Shown here in pieces: positions 41,582-48,346 of a stretch of 64,000 nt of DNA (position 1 is the first letter of the stretch; each line of letters starts with the position of its first letter). The DNA comes from Fibrobacter sp. UWB2. Lineage in GTDB: Bacteria > Fibrobacterota > Fibrobacteria > Fibrobacterales > Fibrobacteraceae. Where the stretch lies: positions 372,001-436,000 of the forward strand of contig NZ_MWQK01000002.1 in NCBI RefSeq assembly GCF_002210425.1, written 5' to 3'. A program made the position numbers and the translations under genes. The notes beneath the pieces were generated by a model. That model saw only the letters and a program-made list of their open reading frames with translations. It did not search any database and was not told the origin of the DNA.

Positions 41582-42487
41582 ATGAAAAAGAAACTTAGCA
41601 TTTGTGCCGCTGCCTTCATCGCTCTTGCTATGACTGGTTGCGATAACGGTAAGACTGGTACCATCGAAGGTGAAGTTCGTGATGCTTTCACCAACAAGCC
41701 GTTGGAAATGCCGACCGTCGGTATGGACTCCACGATTTACACCACTCTTTCCAAGAAGTACGAATTCAACCAGGAACTCCGCAAGGGCAAGTTCAAGTTC
41801 GTCAAGGTTCCGGTTGGCGCTTATAGAGTTTATGCAGGTCGTTCCAAGTACGTGAAGACCCGTATGAAGATTGAAACGACGGAACAGAATCCGAACGCTT
41901 CTCTCATTCTTTACATTTACAGCGCCCAGGTTGATCCGGGTCTGTACCAGGGTACTCCGGAAGGCCCGCTCAAGATCGATAACAAGTGGGTTGTCTACTC
42001 CACGAACTGCGATGAATCCATCGCTGGTTACCGCTTGACGATGCCGCAGCAGCAGGCTGGTGATGCAAAGACAAGCCTTGCTGAAAAGATTGGCGTCAAG
42101 AAGAAAGGCAAGAAGGGTAAGAAGGCTAAGAAGGCTGCTGCTCCGGCCGCTGTCGCTTCTGCTGTGACGAACCTCCCGGATCCGCGTGTTGTCGATGGCA
42201 AGCTCGAAGTGTTCTACCACAACTCTTCTTCCGTGTCTACCGCAATCACGGCTAAGACCTATCCGGCAGTTGTCGCTCCGATCGCTTCTCACAAGGACTG
42301 CAAGGGCTTTGGCGCAGGCGAAACGAAGGGCGTGTTCCCGGTCAAGGACAAGGCAACCGATCTCAAGGTCGAATACGTTGCTGAAAACCTCTTCAAGATT
42401 ACTGGCAACCTCCCGAAGGGCAAGCAGATTATCCAGCTCTCCCAGGACGGAAAGACTCTCCAGACTTACTATTTCGAAGCCAAGTAA
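41582..42487 (+). CDS. Lipoprotein with CarboxypepD_reg-like N-terminal domain
   Basis: A 301-residue lipoprotein: lipobox MTGC (Cys20). Residues about 24-115 (GTIEGEVRDAFTNKPLEMPT ... YIYSAQVDPG) resemble the carboxypeptidase-regulatory-like beta domain. A Lys/Gly stretch (KKKGKKGKKAKKAAA) lies at about 175-190. The C-terminal half is unrecognised. It follows the rpmE2 terminator and ends before its own, so it is a single unit. Function unknown; envelope location. Confidence 0.75.
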   Translation: MKKKLSICAAAFIALAMTGCDNGKTGTIEGEVRDAFTNKPLEMPTVGMDSTIYTTLSKKYEFNQELRKGKFKFVKVPVGAYRVYAGRSKYVKTRMKIETTEQNPNASLILYIYSAQVDPGLYQGTPEGPLKIDNKWVVYSTNCDESIAGYRLTMPQQQAGDAKTSLAEKIGVKKKGKKGKKAKKAAAPAAVASAVTNLPDPRVVDGKLEVFYHNSSSVSTAITAKTYPAVVAPIASHKDCKGFGAGETKGVFPVKDKATDLKVEYVAENLFKITGNLPKGKQIIQLSQDGKTLQTYYFEAK

Positions 42488-42580: not shown

Positions 42581-43657
42581 TTATGCCCCAGCAGCCTCTA
42601 ATCGCTGCACATGGCAGTAGGCGAGTTCCTTCGTTTTTTCATCACGTAAATGCAGGCTGGAGCCTTCGCAGTAGCGCCAGTACTTGCAGGTCTTGCAGTC
42701 GCCGATTTTTGCCCAACTGCGGTCGCGCATCACTTGGTAGCGGTTCTGCCACACGTCCCAAATGTCGTCCTTGTAGATGTTTCCTTGGATGTAGTCGCCG
42801 CGCAAGCTCGGGCAAGCCGAGATACTTCCGTCGCAGAGCACGGAAGAGACGTTTACGCCGGCGCGGCAGAAGAACGGGTAGTTGCGTGCGTCTTTCTCGT
42901 AACTGCCGAGGAACCCTTCGCAGCCGTAGTTCACGTTGATGACGTTCATCGATTTTACTTCGCGGATGAAGTCGAACACCTGGCGGAATTCCTGGTTAGT
43001 AAGCTGGAACAGCGGATTGTCCTTGGCGCGGCCTTTGGGGAATACGGTCGCAACGCGCCAGCGCTTCACACCGATTTTCAAAAGCATGTCCAAGATTTTC
43101 GGGAGTTCCTTGAGGTTTTCGCGGTTCACACAGGTCATCACGTCGAAGGTGAGTCCTTGCGTGTGGGCGGCCATGTCGATGGCGCGCAGCGCGCGTTCAA
43201 AGCTATGCGGGTCGCCACGGAAATGGTTGTGGCTTGCTTCGAGACCGTCAAGGCTGATGGTAAGCGAGCGGAGCCCTGCGTTCAAAAGGCGCGTGTAGCG
43301 CTCGGGAGTCATTGCAAGTCCGTTTGTGACCATGCCCCAGGGGTAGCCGCGCTTCTTGATTTCTTGGCCACATTCTTCGAGGTCCGGGCGCATCAAAGGT
43401 TCGCCTCCGGTAATCACCACGATAAAGTGCTTCGGGTCAACGTGCGGGGCGAGCTTGTCGAGCACGGCCATAAAGTCTTCGCGGGGCATGTCGGGGATGG
43501 CGTCCTTGACGCAGTCGCTACCGCAGTGCAAGCAATGCAAGTTGCAGCGTAGCGTGCATTCCCAGAAAAAGTACGTGAGCGGGTGTGCCTTGATTTCGTT
43601 GTGGCGGTAAAGACGATAAGCTTCGAGAGCGAGTTTCTTTTTAAGCGAAAGTTGCAT
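42581..43657 (-). CDS. Radical SAM/SPASM enzyme of rSAM/lipoprotein type
   Basis: A 358-residue radical SAM protein. The [4Fe-4S] motif CNLHCLHC (Cys38, Cys42, Cys45) is flanked by CTLRC and GSDC. VVITGGEPLMRPD follows, and the C-terminal SPASM region has seven or more cysteines (FFCRAGVNVSSVLCDGSISACP ..., KIGDCKTCKYWRYCEGS). It resembles the enzyme of the rSAM/lipoprotein system known from Bacteroidetes (from memory: TIGR04133), and it is the last gene after three lipoprotein genes with a common N-terminus. Inference: it modifies those lipoproteins, or a Cys-containing part of them. The reaction is unknown. Confidence 0.85.
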   Translation of the reverse strand: MQLSLKKKLALEAYRLYRHNEIKAHPLTYFFWECTLRCNLHCLHCGSDCVKDAIPDMPREDFMAVLDKLAPHVDPKHFIVVITGGEPLMRPDLEECGQEIKKRGYPWGMVTNGLAMTPERYTRLLNAGLRSLTISLDGLEASHNHFRGDPHSFERALRAIDMAAHTQGLTFDVMTCVNRENLKELPKILDMLLKIGVKRWRVATVFPKGRAKDNPLFQLTNQEFRQVFDFIREVKSMNVINVNYGCEGFLGSYEKDARNYPFFCRAGVNVSSVLCDGSISACPSLRGDYIQGNIYKDDIWDVWQNRYQVMRDRSWAKIGDCKTCKYWRYCEGSSLHLRDEKTKELAYCHVQRLEAAGA

Positions 43658-43678
43658 AATAATAGGTGGTAGAAAAGG

Positions 43679-44083
43679 TTAGTGTTTCTCAGGGCAGTCG
43701 ATGGTGGATTCGCAATAATCGTATTCTACCTGAGTGCCTTCTAGGGTTGTATAGGATTCCTTGAAACAGTATTTAGGATCTTTAAAAGTGCAATTTTGAG
43801 CTCCGCATGAACCTGCTGGAGGAGTCGATGCTTCAACGCCCTTAGGTAAATTTTCTTGCAATTCTGGGTGCTCGTAATAAGGCCCCGGTTGTCTTAGGTA
43901 CTTGTATCCATCTTCACATTCGATGATGTCAAAGACTTCGCCTAAATCGTTTGTGGCCGTAGTGTTGTAGCATTGGGTCGGGAAACATCCATAACTAGCG
44001 ACTGCGTCGTCCTCGTTTTCACACCCGCTCCAGAAAAGTGCGAGTACCGAAAGTAAAAATTTTTTCCAGTGTTTGTATAACAT
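43679..44083 (-). CDS. Cys-rich lipoprotein A of the rSAM locus
   Basis: A 134-residue lipoprotein beginning MLYKHWKKFLLSVLALFWSGC, with lipobox Cys21. The N-terminus is nearly the same as in lipoproteins B and C. After it comes ASYGCFPTQCYN, with a YGxxP-like motif, and at least eight further cysteines (for example SCGAQNCTFKDPKYCF). There is no poly-Ser linker. The ORF ends 21 bases before the radical SAM gene. TACCACCTA lies three bases upstream of its start codon. No family fold recognised. Confidence 0.82.
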   Translation of the reverse strand: MLYKHWKKFLLSVLALFWSGCENEDDAVASYGCFPTQCYNTTATNDLGEVFDIIECEDGYKYLRQPGPYYEHPELQENLPKGVEASTPPAGSCGAQNCTFKDPKYCFKESYTTLEGTQVEYDYCESTIDCPEKH

Positions 44084-44098
44084 GATTAGGTGGTAAAA

Positions 44099-44953
44099 CT
44101 AATAATTTTCTTTGGTGTAATATTTCTTGTCGAAATCTTTTTTTGTGTAGGTTGTTTTTTCGCCTTGCTTGTCGGTGCAATTTATGTCGGTTGTGCCTTC
44201 GGTTCTGCGGCAAGTGACTCCGTCATTGCATTTGTACTTAAAAGTACATCTTGAATCTACGCCGTAGTCAGGGCACATGGCTTCAAGATCGCAGACCGTC
44301 AAATCGGTGGTGGGGTTTGATGTTGCAAGGCATTCGTTGATGGTCTGCTCAATTTCCTTTAACTTGTCTTCGTAAATCTTTTGGCATTCTGCGTCAAGCG
44401 CGGGCTTGTTCTTTTCCCATTCCTCTTTCATCTTGAGGTAATCGAGGTATTCCTGCGTGGGGCGAGTGGTGCCATCGCTACAAACTTCGTCTTTGTGGAA
44501 CTTCATCGGGGCGCCGTATAGCGCTACAAACATGTCGAGTTCTTGGCGCAAATCGGCGAGGCACTGCGGAACAGTTTTCAGTGTATTTTGGATGCTGTCA
44601 ATTTTGGCGACACCGCCGTGATTTGCTTTCTGTTCTGCATTTGATTTTGCCACGCTTTCTGAATAGCTCGGCGGGTAATACGATACGAGCGAATCACCTG
44701 GCGCGCATGTCACTTCGCTGGAACTGGATCCGTTTGCGCTACTGGAGCTTGCCGACTCGGAACTTGATGATGCAACGGCTTCGCTAGAACTAGAGCTCTC
44801 AACGCTTTCGCTGGAACTTGATGCTTCGGAACTTATCCCAGAACCGTTGTCGCATGGGCAACCTGATTCCGTGACGCTATCGCCATTACACCCTGCCCAA
44901 AAGAAGGCGGTTGTCGTGAGTAAAAGATTTTTCCAGTGCTTGCGAATGTTCAT
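44099..44953 (-). CDS. Cys-rich lipoprotein B of the rSAM locus
   Basis: A 284-residue lipoprotein beginning MNIRKHWKNLLLTTTAFFWA, lipobox Cys22. A Ser-rich linker (about 40-75) is followed by a helical middle (DLRQELDMFVALYGAP, LKMKEEWEKNKPALDAECQK) and a Cys-rich end (CDLEAMCPDYGVDSRCTF, YKCNDGVTCRRTEG). The final segment NCTDKQGEKTTYTKKDFDKK matches the end of lipoprotein C. Its start codon overlaps the stop of C (ATGA), so C and B are probably translationally coupled. Confidence 0.83.
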   Translation of the reverse strand: MNIRKHWKNLLLTTTAFFWAGCNGDSVTESGCPCDNGSGISSEASSSSESVESSSSSEAVASSSSESASSSSANGSSSSEVTCAPGDSLVSYYPPSYSESVAKSNAEQKANHGGVAKIDSIQNTLKTVPQCLADLRQELDMFVALYGAPMKFHKDEVCSDGTTRPTQEYLDYLKMKEEWEKNKPALDAECQKIYEDKLKEIEQTINECLATSNPTTDLTVCDLEAMCPDYGVDSRCTFKYKCNDGVTCRRTEGTTDINCTDKQGEKTTYTKKDFDKKYYTKENY

Positions 44954-45600
44954 TCTGGTTCCTTTACATCATATTTTGTTTTAAATTCGGCTTCGGTGTA
45001 AGTTATTTCGTTGCCTTGTGTGTCGATGCAATTGAAGGTTGTTTTTTCAGTTCCTTGTTCGGAATAACAGAAAGCCCCATCATTGCATTCATAGTCGCGA
45101 TATGCTTTTGGAGGAACTGTGTTTTCAATTTCGCTGCCTTTAAATGTGCAGGAAAGCGTCTTGTAGATTTTTTTGAAGTGAATCTCATCGTAGGTGAAAC
45201 CGTCGTTGCATTCGTATTTTTTTATAAAGACATCTGCGTCTACACCGTAAACGGGGCATATTGTTGTGCCGTTAAATGTTTCACATGCAGGGGCGGAAAC
45301 ATGGATAGTATCAGTTTTTGCTATGCAGGTGTATCCGTTTTCGCAAGTGACTGTAGAACCGTTTTCAGAGGTGACTTCGCAATCCATTTGCGGCACGCCG
45401 TAGGCGGGCATAGGCAATGGTTCGGAACTGCTAGATATATTATCTTCGCTGCTGGAGCTAGAATTTTGTGTTTCCGAACTACTGGAATACTGCGGAGGGG
45501 CTCCATAAAGAGGAGGTTCCGTGGTTGTGCCGCTATCGCAACTGGCCCAGAAAAATCCGGTAAGTGCAAGTGAAATCTTTTTCCAGTGTTTGTAAAACAT
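44950..45600 (-). CDS. Cys-rich lipoprotein C of the rSAM locus
   Basis: A 216-residue lipoprotein beginning MFYKHWKKISLALTGFFWAS, lipobox Cys21. The start at ATG 45600 has GAGGAG ten bases upstream; an upstream in-frame extension of 30 codons has no such signal. LYGAPPQY precedes a Ser-rich linker and AYGVPQMD follows it, so a YGxP motif occurs twice. Cys pairs follow (CPVYGVDADVF, YECNDGFT, YECNDGAFC), and the end NCIDTQGNEITYTEAEFK matches lipoprotein B. First gene of the operon. Confidence 0.83.
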   Translation of the reverse strand: MFYKHWKKISLALTGFFWASCDSGTTTEPPLYGAPPQYSSSSETQNSSSSSEDNISSSSEPLPMPAYGVPQMDCEVTSENGSTVTCENGYTCIAKTDTIHVSAPACETFNGTTICPVYGVDADVFIKKYECNDGFTYDEIHFKKIYKTLSCTFKGSEIENTVPPKAYRDYECNDGAFCYSEQGTEKTTFNCIDTQGNEITYTEAEFKTKYDVKEPE

Positions 45601-45805
45601 TTTTAACTCCTCACGCCCTATGGGGCTCACACTCCTATAAATATATACAAAATAAGTCCGAAAATGCTCCAAAAAGGCGATAAATCCCATGTGCCGAAAA
45701 GATTTTGTTGCATCTGTTGCATATAGGCTTCTCGTAGGGTGTTTTGGTCTAAAATTCTCCTTGTCGTGCTCGGTCTTTGCGTATAAAAGTTATATTTAAC
45801 GCACT

Positions 45806-48346
45806 ATGAAAAAAGAAACGTTAGGAAGGGACGGTGTAAAGTCTAAGTCTTTGCGTCAGTCCTTTATGGAATGGAAGAATTCCCTTCATTGGGATAAACC
45901 TCAGAATATCATGTTGGCGGTTACGATGTTCGTGCTCGTGGCTGCTTTCCTTATCTTTAACAATTTATCCGTGCCGTATGCGCGCCATTGGGATATCCAA
46001 TGGGGGTATTACTCGATTCTTGCCACGTTCCTGTTGCTCGTGGCGGGTGTTGTTGTCAATGCTCCGTTTGTGGCAAAATATGTGCGCGGGTTCTTGCCGA
46101 GTGGCAAGAGCTTTTGTGGGCTAGCCCTTTTACTCATCGTGTTCTCGGTGTTCATTTTCGGGAACATCGGCAATACGCACCGCGTCTTGAGTGACGAGAC
46201 GAGCTGGGAATCGATGGGCCTCCAGATGTATTTCCAGCACACGGGCGGTGTCTGTAACGAAGGCGTCTGGACAGATGGCGTTCTCGATTGCAAGACCGAA
46301 GTGAACAACTTCAAGGGCAAGGCGCTTGGCTTTGTCTATTCGCTTGTGTTCAACTTTATGGAACCGAATCGCGATTCTGCGCTGATGGTGAACTATCCGT
46401 TCTACATCTTGAGCTTGATTGCGTTCTTCCTTGCGCTTAGCAAGTGGTTCAAGAGCGATAAGCTTGCGCTTGCGGCGACGGCGTTCTTGGGCGGCATGCC
46501 GATATACTTGTTGCAGTCGCGCTCCGCATCGACCGAAGTCCTCTACATCCTCTTGCTTGCAGTGCTTATGGCGTGGTACGCGTTTGTGCCGACGAACAAG
46601 GTCACGTGGAAGCATTTCCTCTTGACGGTTCCGCTGCTTGGATTCTTTGCGCAGACCCGCCAGGAAACTGTATTTGCATTTATCCCGTTTGCGCTTTACT
46701 ATTACCGTTACTTCCTCGAAAAACCGTATCGTTTGCCTGCTTTTGTGGCGTCGGTGATTGCAGTGAGCTGGCCTTCGATCAACACGATGGCGGCATATCG
46801 CGGGTATGATTTCCAGGGTGGTACGCATGCGGCGCACTCGTTTGAAAACTTGTGGTACAACCTCAAGACGAATATCGAAGTCATGATGAACCTCAAGCCG
46901 GATTCTGCTTTTGGCGGTATCATGGAAAATCCGTTCTACACGACGTTTACCGTGATTTTGCTTTTGGCAACGGTTTGGCTCCTGTTCCGCATGATTTACT
47001 CTCGCCGTTACGTGCGCGGATTTATCTTGGGCATCACGTTCTGCGTGCAGATTTTTGTGATTCTCCTGAACGTGTCTGGAACGTTTACGATTGATATCAA
47101 CCAGCGCTATGTGCTTGTGGCGCTCCCGCTGTTTGCGCTCTTGATGGCGCTCGGCCTTTACGATGCGCTCGTGTTTACGACGAAGATGAAGAGCGATGCT
47201 GCCGCAAAGATTGTGGCGGGGTTTGCTTGCCTTTTGTCTATCGGGCTTATGCTTTACCATGCTCCGAGCTACAAGGCGAACATGCTCTATTACAAGAACA
47301 AGCTCTTGGCCGAAGAAGACTTCTTGAATACGGAACTGGCAAAGTATCCGAAGAACTCCGTGTTCATTTACGCTAGACCGTGGCAGATGCTGGCATCGGG
47401 CCATACTTCGTTTAGCGAAAGCTCCTTTAAGAGCTGGAGCACCGAAAAGTTTGCTGAATGGATGCAAAAGTCTGGAGGCAATATTTATCTTGTGCGCGGT
47501 CAGGATGGCTACGGCAAGGTGAATCGCAATAGCCGCGTGGTGGGCTTCAAGACGACCGACCAGATTGACGATATCTTGGGCGCATACAAGAACGAGCGCG
47601 TGCTGATGGAAGCCCGTCTGTTCGGTTATGGCCTAGCTATTTACAAGATTATCTCGAAGAAGGGCGTGTCGCATTATGCGCAGAACTTCATGGTGAGCGA
47701 AGAAACGAATGGCATGATTGTCGTGAACAAGCGCTTCCCGGAATCGATTGCTTGCGATTACAAGGTGAACGACAAGGACCAGGGCGAAATGCTCGTGTCG
47801 CAAAGCGCTGACACGCTGCAACTCGATTCTGCCAAGATTCGTGCGGGCTTGAACCGCGTTGTGCTGAGCTGCTACATGCCGGACGAAGATACGCTTGTGA
47901 CGTACCGCGATTTCTTTGTCGAGGGCGAGAATGTGGCGCTCCTTTCGAAGCTCAAGATGGGCAAGTACTTCCAGGAATGGGGTGAGCCGCAGATGAACGA
48001 GACTGTCGATCACCACAAGATTACGATTGACGGTGAACCGTTCCGCTATGGTATTGGTAGCCATGCAAACTCGGCGATTGAGTTCCCGCTTGCACGCAGC
48101 TATGATTGGTTGAACGTGGTCATTGGTCTTGATGACGAAAGTGCTTGTGGCGATGGAGCCTACTTTGCTGTTGAAGCAGATGGTCGCGAAATCTACCATT
48201 CCAAGAAACTTTATACGACAGACAAGGAGCGCTTGAAACTTGATATCAAGGGTGCCAAGTCGATTAACTTGCGCGTGTTGATGGGCAACGACAAGGACTG
48301 CGACCACGGCGACTGGGCTCATGCCTGGCTTGAGGCTGAAAAATGA
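45806..48346 (+). CDS. GT-C membrane glycosyltransferase-like protein with C-terminal NPCBM module
   Basis: An 846-residue protein. Residues about 35-490 contain around ten hydrophobic helices. The first large loop has SDETSWESMGLQMYF, which suits the acidic pair of GT-C enzymes (GT39/GT83 type, using a lipid-linked sugar donor). Residues about 715-846 match an NPCBM carbohydrate-binding module: ITIDGEPFRYGIGSHANSAI, FPLARSYDWLNVVIGLDDES and LRVLMGNDKDCDHGDWAHAW. Such modules are usually on secreted glycosidases, so a fusion to a membrane GT is unusual. Its last four bases overlap the next gene. First gene of a four-gene operon. Confidence 0.8.
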   Translation: MKKETLGRDGVKSKSLRQSFMEWKNSLHWDKPQNIMLAVTMFVLVAAFLIFNNLSVPYARHWDIQWGYYSILATFLLLVAGVVVNAPFVAKYVRGFLPSGKSFCGLALLLIVFSVFIFGNIGNTHRVLSDETSWESMGLQMYFQHTGGVCNEGVWTDGVLDCKTEVNNFKGKALGFVYSLVFNFMEPNRDSALMVNYPFYILSLIAFFLALSKWFKSDKLALAATAFLGGMPIYLLQSRSASTEVLYILLLAVLMAWYAFVPTNKVTWKHFLLTVPLLGFFAQTRQETVFAFIPFALYYYRYFLEKPYRLPAFVASVIAVSWPSINTMAAYRGYDFQGGTHAAHSFENLWYNLKTNIEVMMNLKPDSAFGGIMENPFYTTFTVILLLATVWLLFRMIYSRRYVRGFILGITFCVQIFVILLNVSGTFTIDINQRYVLVALPLFALLMALGLYDALVFTTKMKSDAAAKIVAGFACLLSIGLMLYHAPSYKANMLYYKNKLLAEEDFLNTELAKYPKNSVFIYARPWQMLASGHTSFSESSFKSWSTEKFAEWMQKSGGNIYLVRGQDGYGKVNRNSRVVGFKTTDQIDDILGAYKNERVLMEARLFGYGLAIYKIISKKGVSHYAQNFMVSEETNGMIVVNKRFPESIACDYKVNDKDQGEMLVSQSADTLQLDSAKIRAGLNRVVLSCYMPDEDTLVTYRDFFVEGENVALLSKLKMGKYFQEWGEPQMNETVDHHKITIDGEPFRYGIGSHANSAIEFPLARSYDWLNVVIGLDDESACGDGAYFAVEADGREIYHSKKLYTTDKERLKLDIKGAKSINLRVLMGNDKDCDHGDWAHAWLEAEK

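Follow-up and report, generated by a model that had tools for sequence, protein, structure and literature searches.

PlpX, which has been assigned to IPR026482 (PMC11002830), is a splicease that excises tyramine from the peptide backbone; in its published specificity Tyr and Gly are fixed and the preceding residue X is free, and the published tags of PlpA read PIRPLYGLPI and AVAAGYGVVF, the second carrying an engineered M to G change. A second described system pairs radical S-adenosylmethionine (SAM) enzymes of NCBIfam TIGR04133 with lipoproteins of TIGR04134, both families being listed as 'hypoth_equivalog' with function unassigned (June 2026 release). Here we analyse a 64,000-nt stretch of Fibrobacter sp. 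UWB2 (contig NZ_MWQK01000002.1, positions 372,001 to 436,000), called the window below, which holds an operon of three lipoprotein genes (A, B and C) and one TIGR04133 gene. Comparison with related sequences leads us to favour, with some reserve, the reading that this operon is a protein-splicing system in which a leader guides the enzyme to its lipoprotein substrates, which would be spliced at XYG sites in their mature parts. A literature search with the splicease survey of Scott et al. (2022) outside its scope, so that an earlier mention is possible, returned no paper naming TIGR04133/TIGR04134 or tying spliceases to lipoproteins.

The operon and its radical SAM enzyme

The genes follow each other in the order A-B-C-radical SAM on the minus strand (window positions 45600-42581), and the three lipoproteins with one N-terminus beside a radical SAM/SPASM gene that a first-pass annotation had noticed are all in place. 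A 4-nt overlap (ATGA) joins A to B and the gaps are 15 nt between B and C and 21 nt between C and the radical SAM gene, so that we read the four genes as one operon. The start of A was set at MFYK and not at the longer open reading frame (ORF) start at 45690. The genes and signal peptides are:

44950..45600, minus strand: lipoprotein A, first operon gene, 216 amino acids (aa), starts MFYKHWKKISLALTGFFWASC, three xYG sites
45541..45600, minus strand: signal peptide of A (KHWKK...FWAS), proposed recognition leader; lipobox Cys codon 45538-45540; profile A2 E=1.6e-13, whole genome
44099..44953, minus strand: lipoprotein B, 284 aa, starts MNIRKHWKNLLLTTTAFFWAGC, Ser-rich linker, two xYG sites
44891..44953, minus strand: signal peptide of B, proposed recognition leader; lipobox Cys codon 44888-44890; profile A2 E=7.1e-14
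43679..44083, minus strand: lipoprotein C, 134 aa, starts MLYKHWKKFLLSVLALFWSGC, one xYG site
44024..44083, minus strand: signal peptide of C, proposed recognition leader; lipobox Cys codon 44021-44023; profile A2 E=2.5e-13
42581..43657, minus strand: TIGR04133 radical SAM/SPASM enzyme, last operon gene, 358 aa (NCBIfam, Pfam)

The enzyme matches TIGR04133 over its full length (627 bits, cut-off 425; profile 1-350 of 350), and in Pfam both Radical_SAM (PF04055, 3.6e-22) and SPASM (PF13186, 1.3e-7) exceed their gathering scores. All three cysteines of its radical SAM motif C38-x3-C42-x2-C45 are invariant and the SPASM cysteines lie near the C-terminus. For the AlphaFold2 model (predicted local distance difference test, pLDDT, 81) the best-matching solved folds are SuiB and SkfB, maturases of ribosomally synthesized and post-translationally modified peptides (RiPPs); one helix precedes the core, and a domain resembling the RiPP recognition element (RRE) was not seen in this model. 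The closest named enzyme is that of F. succinogenes with 97% identity. A second TIGR04133 gene of the same genome (C1:663248-664297) has its own KHWKK lipoprotein, MYKHWKKFLLALTTFLWNAC.

The signal peptides of A, B and C are near-identical. When a profile of this N-terminus (A2, 23 positions) was run against the whole 3.53-Mb genome, only four strong matches were obtained (E 7e-14 to 2e-11), namely A, B, C and the lipoprotein adjoining the second TIGR04133 gene, which places the likeness beyond chance. Exact KHWKN matches elsewhere in the genome turned out to be internal to unrelated proteins. As already remarked at first reading, the mature parts are Cys-rich (10 further cysteines in A, 13 in B and 8 in C), and A and B have NCxDxQGxxxTYT near the C-terminus in common. 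Nothing in Pfam or NCBIfam matches A, B or C above curated cut-offs. Judged by family membership of the enzyme, the pairing is the known radical SAM/lipoprotein system that the first-pass annotation had proposed; the lipoprotein half of that proposal did not hold, since A, B and C gave no hit to TIGR04134 (cut-off 39.8 bits), for which the best match of the genome reached 20.5 bits at an unrelated place.

A Tyr-Gly signature in the mature lipoproteins

From 60 TIGR04133 neighbourhoods of the genus Fibrobacter we collected 125 distinct lipoproteins with a KHWK...W-x-x-C start. All 125 carry H, W, W(-3) and C, which fits the earlier suggestion of the shared N-terminus as a recognition element. 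YG is the most over-represented dipeptide of the 125 mature parts: it was counted 353 times, compared to a mean of 67 and a maximum of 89 in 500 shuffles, and 123 of the 125 lipoproteins carry at least one copy. Lipoproteins with a Trp(-3) lipobox contain 493 YG where 99 are expected (present in 185 of 189 proteins), whereas the control group, lipoproteins of the same loci without Trp(-3), contains 46 where 47.5 are expected. A role of the N-terminus as a generic lipoprotein-sorting signal is made unlikely by this result, because the YG excess is confined to the Trp(-3) type. The sites in the window are:

45502..45507, minus strand: Tyr-Gly site A1 (PLYGAPPQ)
45397..45402, minus strand: Tyr-Gly site A2 (PAYGVPQM)
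45244..45249, minus strand: Tyr-Gly site A3 (PVYGVDAD)
44513..44518, minus strand: Tyr-Gly site B1 (ALYGAPMK)
44261..44266, minus strand: Tyr-Gly site B2 (PDYGVDSR)
43988..43993, minus strand: Tyr-Gly site C1 (ASYGCFPT)

YG motifs past the lipobox had been pointed out for A and C, the site of C being 10 residues past the lipobox Cys; both sites of B can be added, which sit further out. Between homologues the Y of YG is conserved in 84% and the G in 85%, compared to 61% for other Y and 50% for other G, while the residue before YG is conserved in 47%, compared to 46% for all residues. By this measure Tyr and Gly are fixed at the sites and X is free. The main residues at X in Fibrobacter are Leu, Lys, Glu, Asp, Ala and Val, the position following Gly can be V, A, I, C, P or T, and a single protein has 0 to 8 xYG sites. 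Some of the sites are arranged as tandem cassettes within Ser-rich linkers (such as IAAKYGVIKP-SSSS); the repeated unit is SSSSKGMIAPKYGVVM in L097 and SIAAKYGV in L091. The KYG cassettes of L097, L091 and L098, where the lipoprotein genes lie 5' of the radical SAM gene, are identical or nearly so within one protein, which suggests recent cassette duplication.

Distribution in Fibrobacter and partners in other phyla

The co-occurrence in other Fibrobacter that had been anticipated was found: TIGR04133 (E below 1e-100) is present in 54 of 61 genomes of the genus and in 28 of the 29 good-quality ones, and in G009, the only one of the 29 that lacks it, no strong match to the N-terminal profile was obtained. 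One regular expression places a lipoprotein gene next to 60 of 65 Fibrobacter radical SAM genes, and of the five cases that it missed, at least two (L096, L098) have one as well; at most radical SAM genes the lipoprotein gene ends up to about 100 nt upstream. At first reading, copies of the same N-terminus far from any radical SAM gene had been named as a difficulty for the pairing. A few such dispersed versions do exist, weaker or strong, and nearly all of them carry YG sites. The weaker matches in the same genome (C1:766484, C4:114373, C4:117273 and C1:575041) are lipoproteins with PVYGIVS, ALYGVLPD, CYYGVIV and PVYGVPE, and the strong matches dispersed in other genomes (L214, L215, L218, L220) likewise carry YG sites; one weaker match, L210, is without YG. 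Because YG is so nearly general among them, the dispersed lipoproteins look like substrates in trans.

By scanning genome contigs we found enzymes with 55-73% identity in Bacteroidota, deep Fibrobacterota and one Neomarinimicrobiota, those of Bacteroidota being 55-60% identical to the window enzyme, and plasmid records added enzymes of Treponema, Parabacteroides and Phocaeicola. Nearly all of these enzymes adjoin lipoproteins that contain xYG[V/T/C/S]P, in most cases no further than ~20 residues from the lipobox Cys. The Bacteroidota and Treponema partners resemble those of Fibrobacter in little else than a signal peptide and this motif near the lipobox. In the non-Fibrobacter partners X is mainly Glu, the n-region reads K-x-[Y/F]-[D/G/N]-K, echoing K-H-W-K-K, and the mature parts mostly contain 0 or 1 Cys. 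A viral-contig scan with a Bacteroides-like probe gave no matches; beyond that, this probe formed only one row of search alignment A1, and the results rest on real sequences.

Probable kinship with splicease-type enzymes

The PlpX family IPR026482 is, as we take it, TIGR04103, and the layout of a Nostoc TIGR04103 locus (Nif11 precursor, enzyme, small protein, NHLP precursor), which is the published PlpX layout, agrees with this. The Nostoc precursor ends GSIALYGLPPELF and contains IALYGLPP. Among plasmid records, the Nostoc TIGR04103 enzyme was the best match by score outside TIGR04133, with 146 bits; it was followed by Aureibacter (138) and by the Azospirillum GDL and the Agathobacter enzymes (132-135), NirJ reaching 111 and TIGR04053 108. 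The hidden Markov model (HMM) scores of the window enzyme are near-equal for TIGR04103 (142, cut-off 725), TIGR04053 (140) and AhbD (136), so that the score alone is weak evidence; the enzyme is still the best TIGR04103 match of its genome. In a tree with PqqE/MftC outgroups, the rooting of which depends on long branches, TIGR04133 joins TIGR04103/GDL/Agathobacter against NirJ/NirJ2/TIGR04053/TIGR04347 (support 96/81), and a second, unrooted tree of three groups was uninformative on a sister relation of TIGR04133 and spliceases. Shared by TIGR04133 and its splicease-side relatives are HCGS after the radical SAM cysteines, W200, G248, E254, C264, CPS and GNI; the HCGS, Trp, GxxGxYE-like, CPS and GNI residues are absent from most NirJ/NirJ2/TIGR04053/TIGR04347 enzymes. 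The kinship of TIGR04133 to splicease-type enzymes has, on these comparisons, moderate support. The flanks of the Fibrobacter sites (APKYGVPI, TAKYGVVY) are also closer to the PlpA tags than are the YG of other lipoproteins (p 8e-10 and 6e-10).

The identity between GDL enzymes and the TIGR04103 enzyme of Nostoc is 48%. In the DUF1843 precursors of GDL-motif radical SAM systems (L184 2028-2743, L185 3156-3869) the region near the N-terminus has xYG, xYA or xYM (MLYGGAM, KPYGVAI, PMYMATM, VLYAAGI, QPYGAGI), from which it appears that these systems may also splice. On an Agathobacter rectalis plasmid (L183, NZ_CP143948.1, 3701-5152) a very short ORF without annotation, which ends ISELKTSKNLFGPVMYGTGVRM, is followed by a radical SAM/SPASM gene and a major facilitator superfamily transporter gene; the tiny peptide ends GPVMYGTGVRM, and the locus is a candidate spliceotide cluster.

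Proposed mechanism and alternative explanations

In the mechanism that we propose, the enzyme would recognise the signal peptide [K/R]-H-W-K-[K/N]...F-W-x-x-C as a leader in the cytoplasm, before export, and would splice the lipoprotein backbone at XYG sites, leaving X-CO-CO-NH-Gly with X at P1. The spliced lipoprotein would then be exported, lipidated at Cys+1 and displayed on the cell surface or outer membrane. By analogy, the products of the TIGR04133 pair are probably proteins whose backbones are unnatural and reactive. Spliceotides have been reported as protease inhibitors (PMC10373908, PMC11117315), which suggests a speculative idea that we consider less likely than not: the ketoamides could be membrane-anchored covalent baits for serine/cysteine proteases, in which X would occupy P1. 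The candidates found at X are Leu, Lys, Glu, Asp, Ala and Val. The chances seem to us evenly balanced that TIGR04133 as a whole is a widespread unrecognised splicease class in Fibrobacter, gut Bacteroidota and Treponema, guided by signal peptides and acting on many XYG sites, with substrates encoded elsewhere too, and that it would produce surface alpha-ketoamide arrays differing in their side chains, probably as protease baits.

The enzyme might act on the YG sites by some other chemistry, such as a Tyr crosslink or cyclophane, epimerisation, hydroxylation or MftC-type oxidative decarboxylation. The sequence data establish only Y and G as conserved positions, SPASM enzymes of similar HMM score include crosslinkers and cofactor enzymes, and the V, A, I, C or P following Gly is a possible partner of a Tyr crosslink. 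However, the position after Gly is variable, Gly is conserved like Tyr, three-residue cyclophanes have no known requirement for such a Gly, and the TIGR04103- and GDL-annotated relatives have the same xYG in their precursors; we regard another chemistry as unlikely, although it is the rival with a real share of the probability. An improbable explanation makes YG a structural or interaction motif, with the true target of the enzyme elsewhere or in a different protein. Membership of YG in a domain would fit the repeated, Cys-containing unit that often follows it in Fibrobacter proteins, but tandem YG cassettes (L091, L097, L098) stand in bare Ser-rich linkers too, YG is also seen just past the lipobox of unrelated Bacteroidota proteins, and it follows the signal-peptide type (185/189, compared to chance level in the control). 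Among 99 genomes of one Bacteroidota order, with relatedness uncorrected, TIGR04133 was found in 14 of the 88 genomes without TIGR04134 above cut-off, a point in favour of this explanation, and in 11 of the 11 genomes with it, a point against.

The first-pass annotation had left Cys and the YG segment side by side as targets, of which the YG segment is the likely one. A modification of Cys (thioether or similar) would suit the many cysteines past the lipobox of A, B and C and the Cys conservation of 89% among Fibrobacter homologues. Yet most Bacteroidota partners have 0 or 1 Cys in the mature part despite enzymes 55-60% identical to that of the window, and cysteines in the periplasm or on the surface are more simply explained as disulphides. 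Because many of these cross-phylum partners have no Cys past the lipobox, we rejected Cys as the target and give this explanation very little weight.

Several observations weigh against splicing at XYG sites, in addition to the near-equal HMM scores and the long branches noted above. Two KHWK lipoproteins of one genome (L061) are without YG, and a Fibrobacteraceae TIGR04133 gene (L094, G031:C44:10500-20000) has no recognisable YG lipoprotein within 6 kb upstream. In Treponema and some Bacteroidota the lipobox Cys itself is X (TSCYGMPE, QACYGTPQ; L180 4622-5011, L260, L265), so that the change would fall on the lipidated residue. Compared to PlpXY, the Fibrobacter substrates are without a Nif11/NHLP leader and have a lipoprotein signal peptide instead, and no PlpY-like accessory or RRE gene was found in the operon, which has no gene besides A, B, C and radical SAM.

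If XYG splicing is true, the orphan TIGR04133/TIGR04134 system would gain a specific chemistry, protein splicing would no longer be confined to small secreted peptides but would include large lipoproteins of the cell surface, and the signal peptide would serve a second purpose as leader. Abundant bacteria of rumen and gut would be predicted to display reactive electrophiles at their surface, and signal-peptide-guided enzymes might be used for protein labelling. The trans-encoded lipoproteins provide a testable list of further candidate substrates.

Flanking features

Two further features adjoin the operon, the first of which recurs at other Fibrobacter TIGR04133 loci (L055, L111, L100):

41582..42487, plus strand: convergent lipoprotein gene, MKKKLSICAAAFIALAMTGC...GTIEGEVRDAFTNKPLE, 93 nt from the end of the radical SAM gene
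45601..45805, minus strand: intergenic region 5' of A, operon promoter presumed from position only; a divergent plus-strand gene lies at 45806

Comparison with known systems

With the TIGR04133/TIGR04134 system the locus has in common a full-length enzyme member, lipoprotein genes directly upstream and xYG past the lipobox. The Fibrobacter lipoproteins differ from those of TIGR04134 in being Cys-rich, with Ser linkers and up to eight xYG sites, in numbering ~8 per locus at most, plus dispersed copies, and in a KHWKK/FWxxC signal peptide where the TIGR04134 system has K-x-Y-[D/G/N]-K. NirJ, NirJ2, AhbD and TIGR04053 resemble the window enzyme in radical SAM/SPASM architecture and HMM scores, but stand on the other side of the trees and are without the HCGS, CPS and GNI residues; the known substrates of these heme-type enzymes are tetrapyrroles. 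GDL maturases (TIGR03913) with DUF1843 precursors are the nearest relatives of TIGR04103 and are similar in that xYG or xY-small lies near the precursor N-terminus, whereas their precursors are ~60 aa long without signal peptide and the GDL enzyme has a Cys-rich C-terminal extension. With PlpXY, finally, the Fibrobacter system shares a SPASM radical SAM enzyme of a neighbouring clade and XYG sites with free X, several per substrate, with P/A ahead of X and V/L, P/V after Gly.

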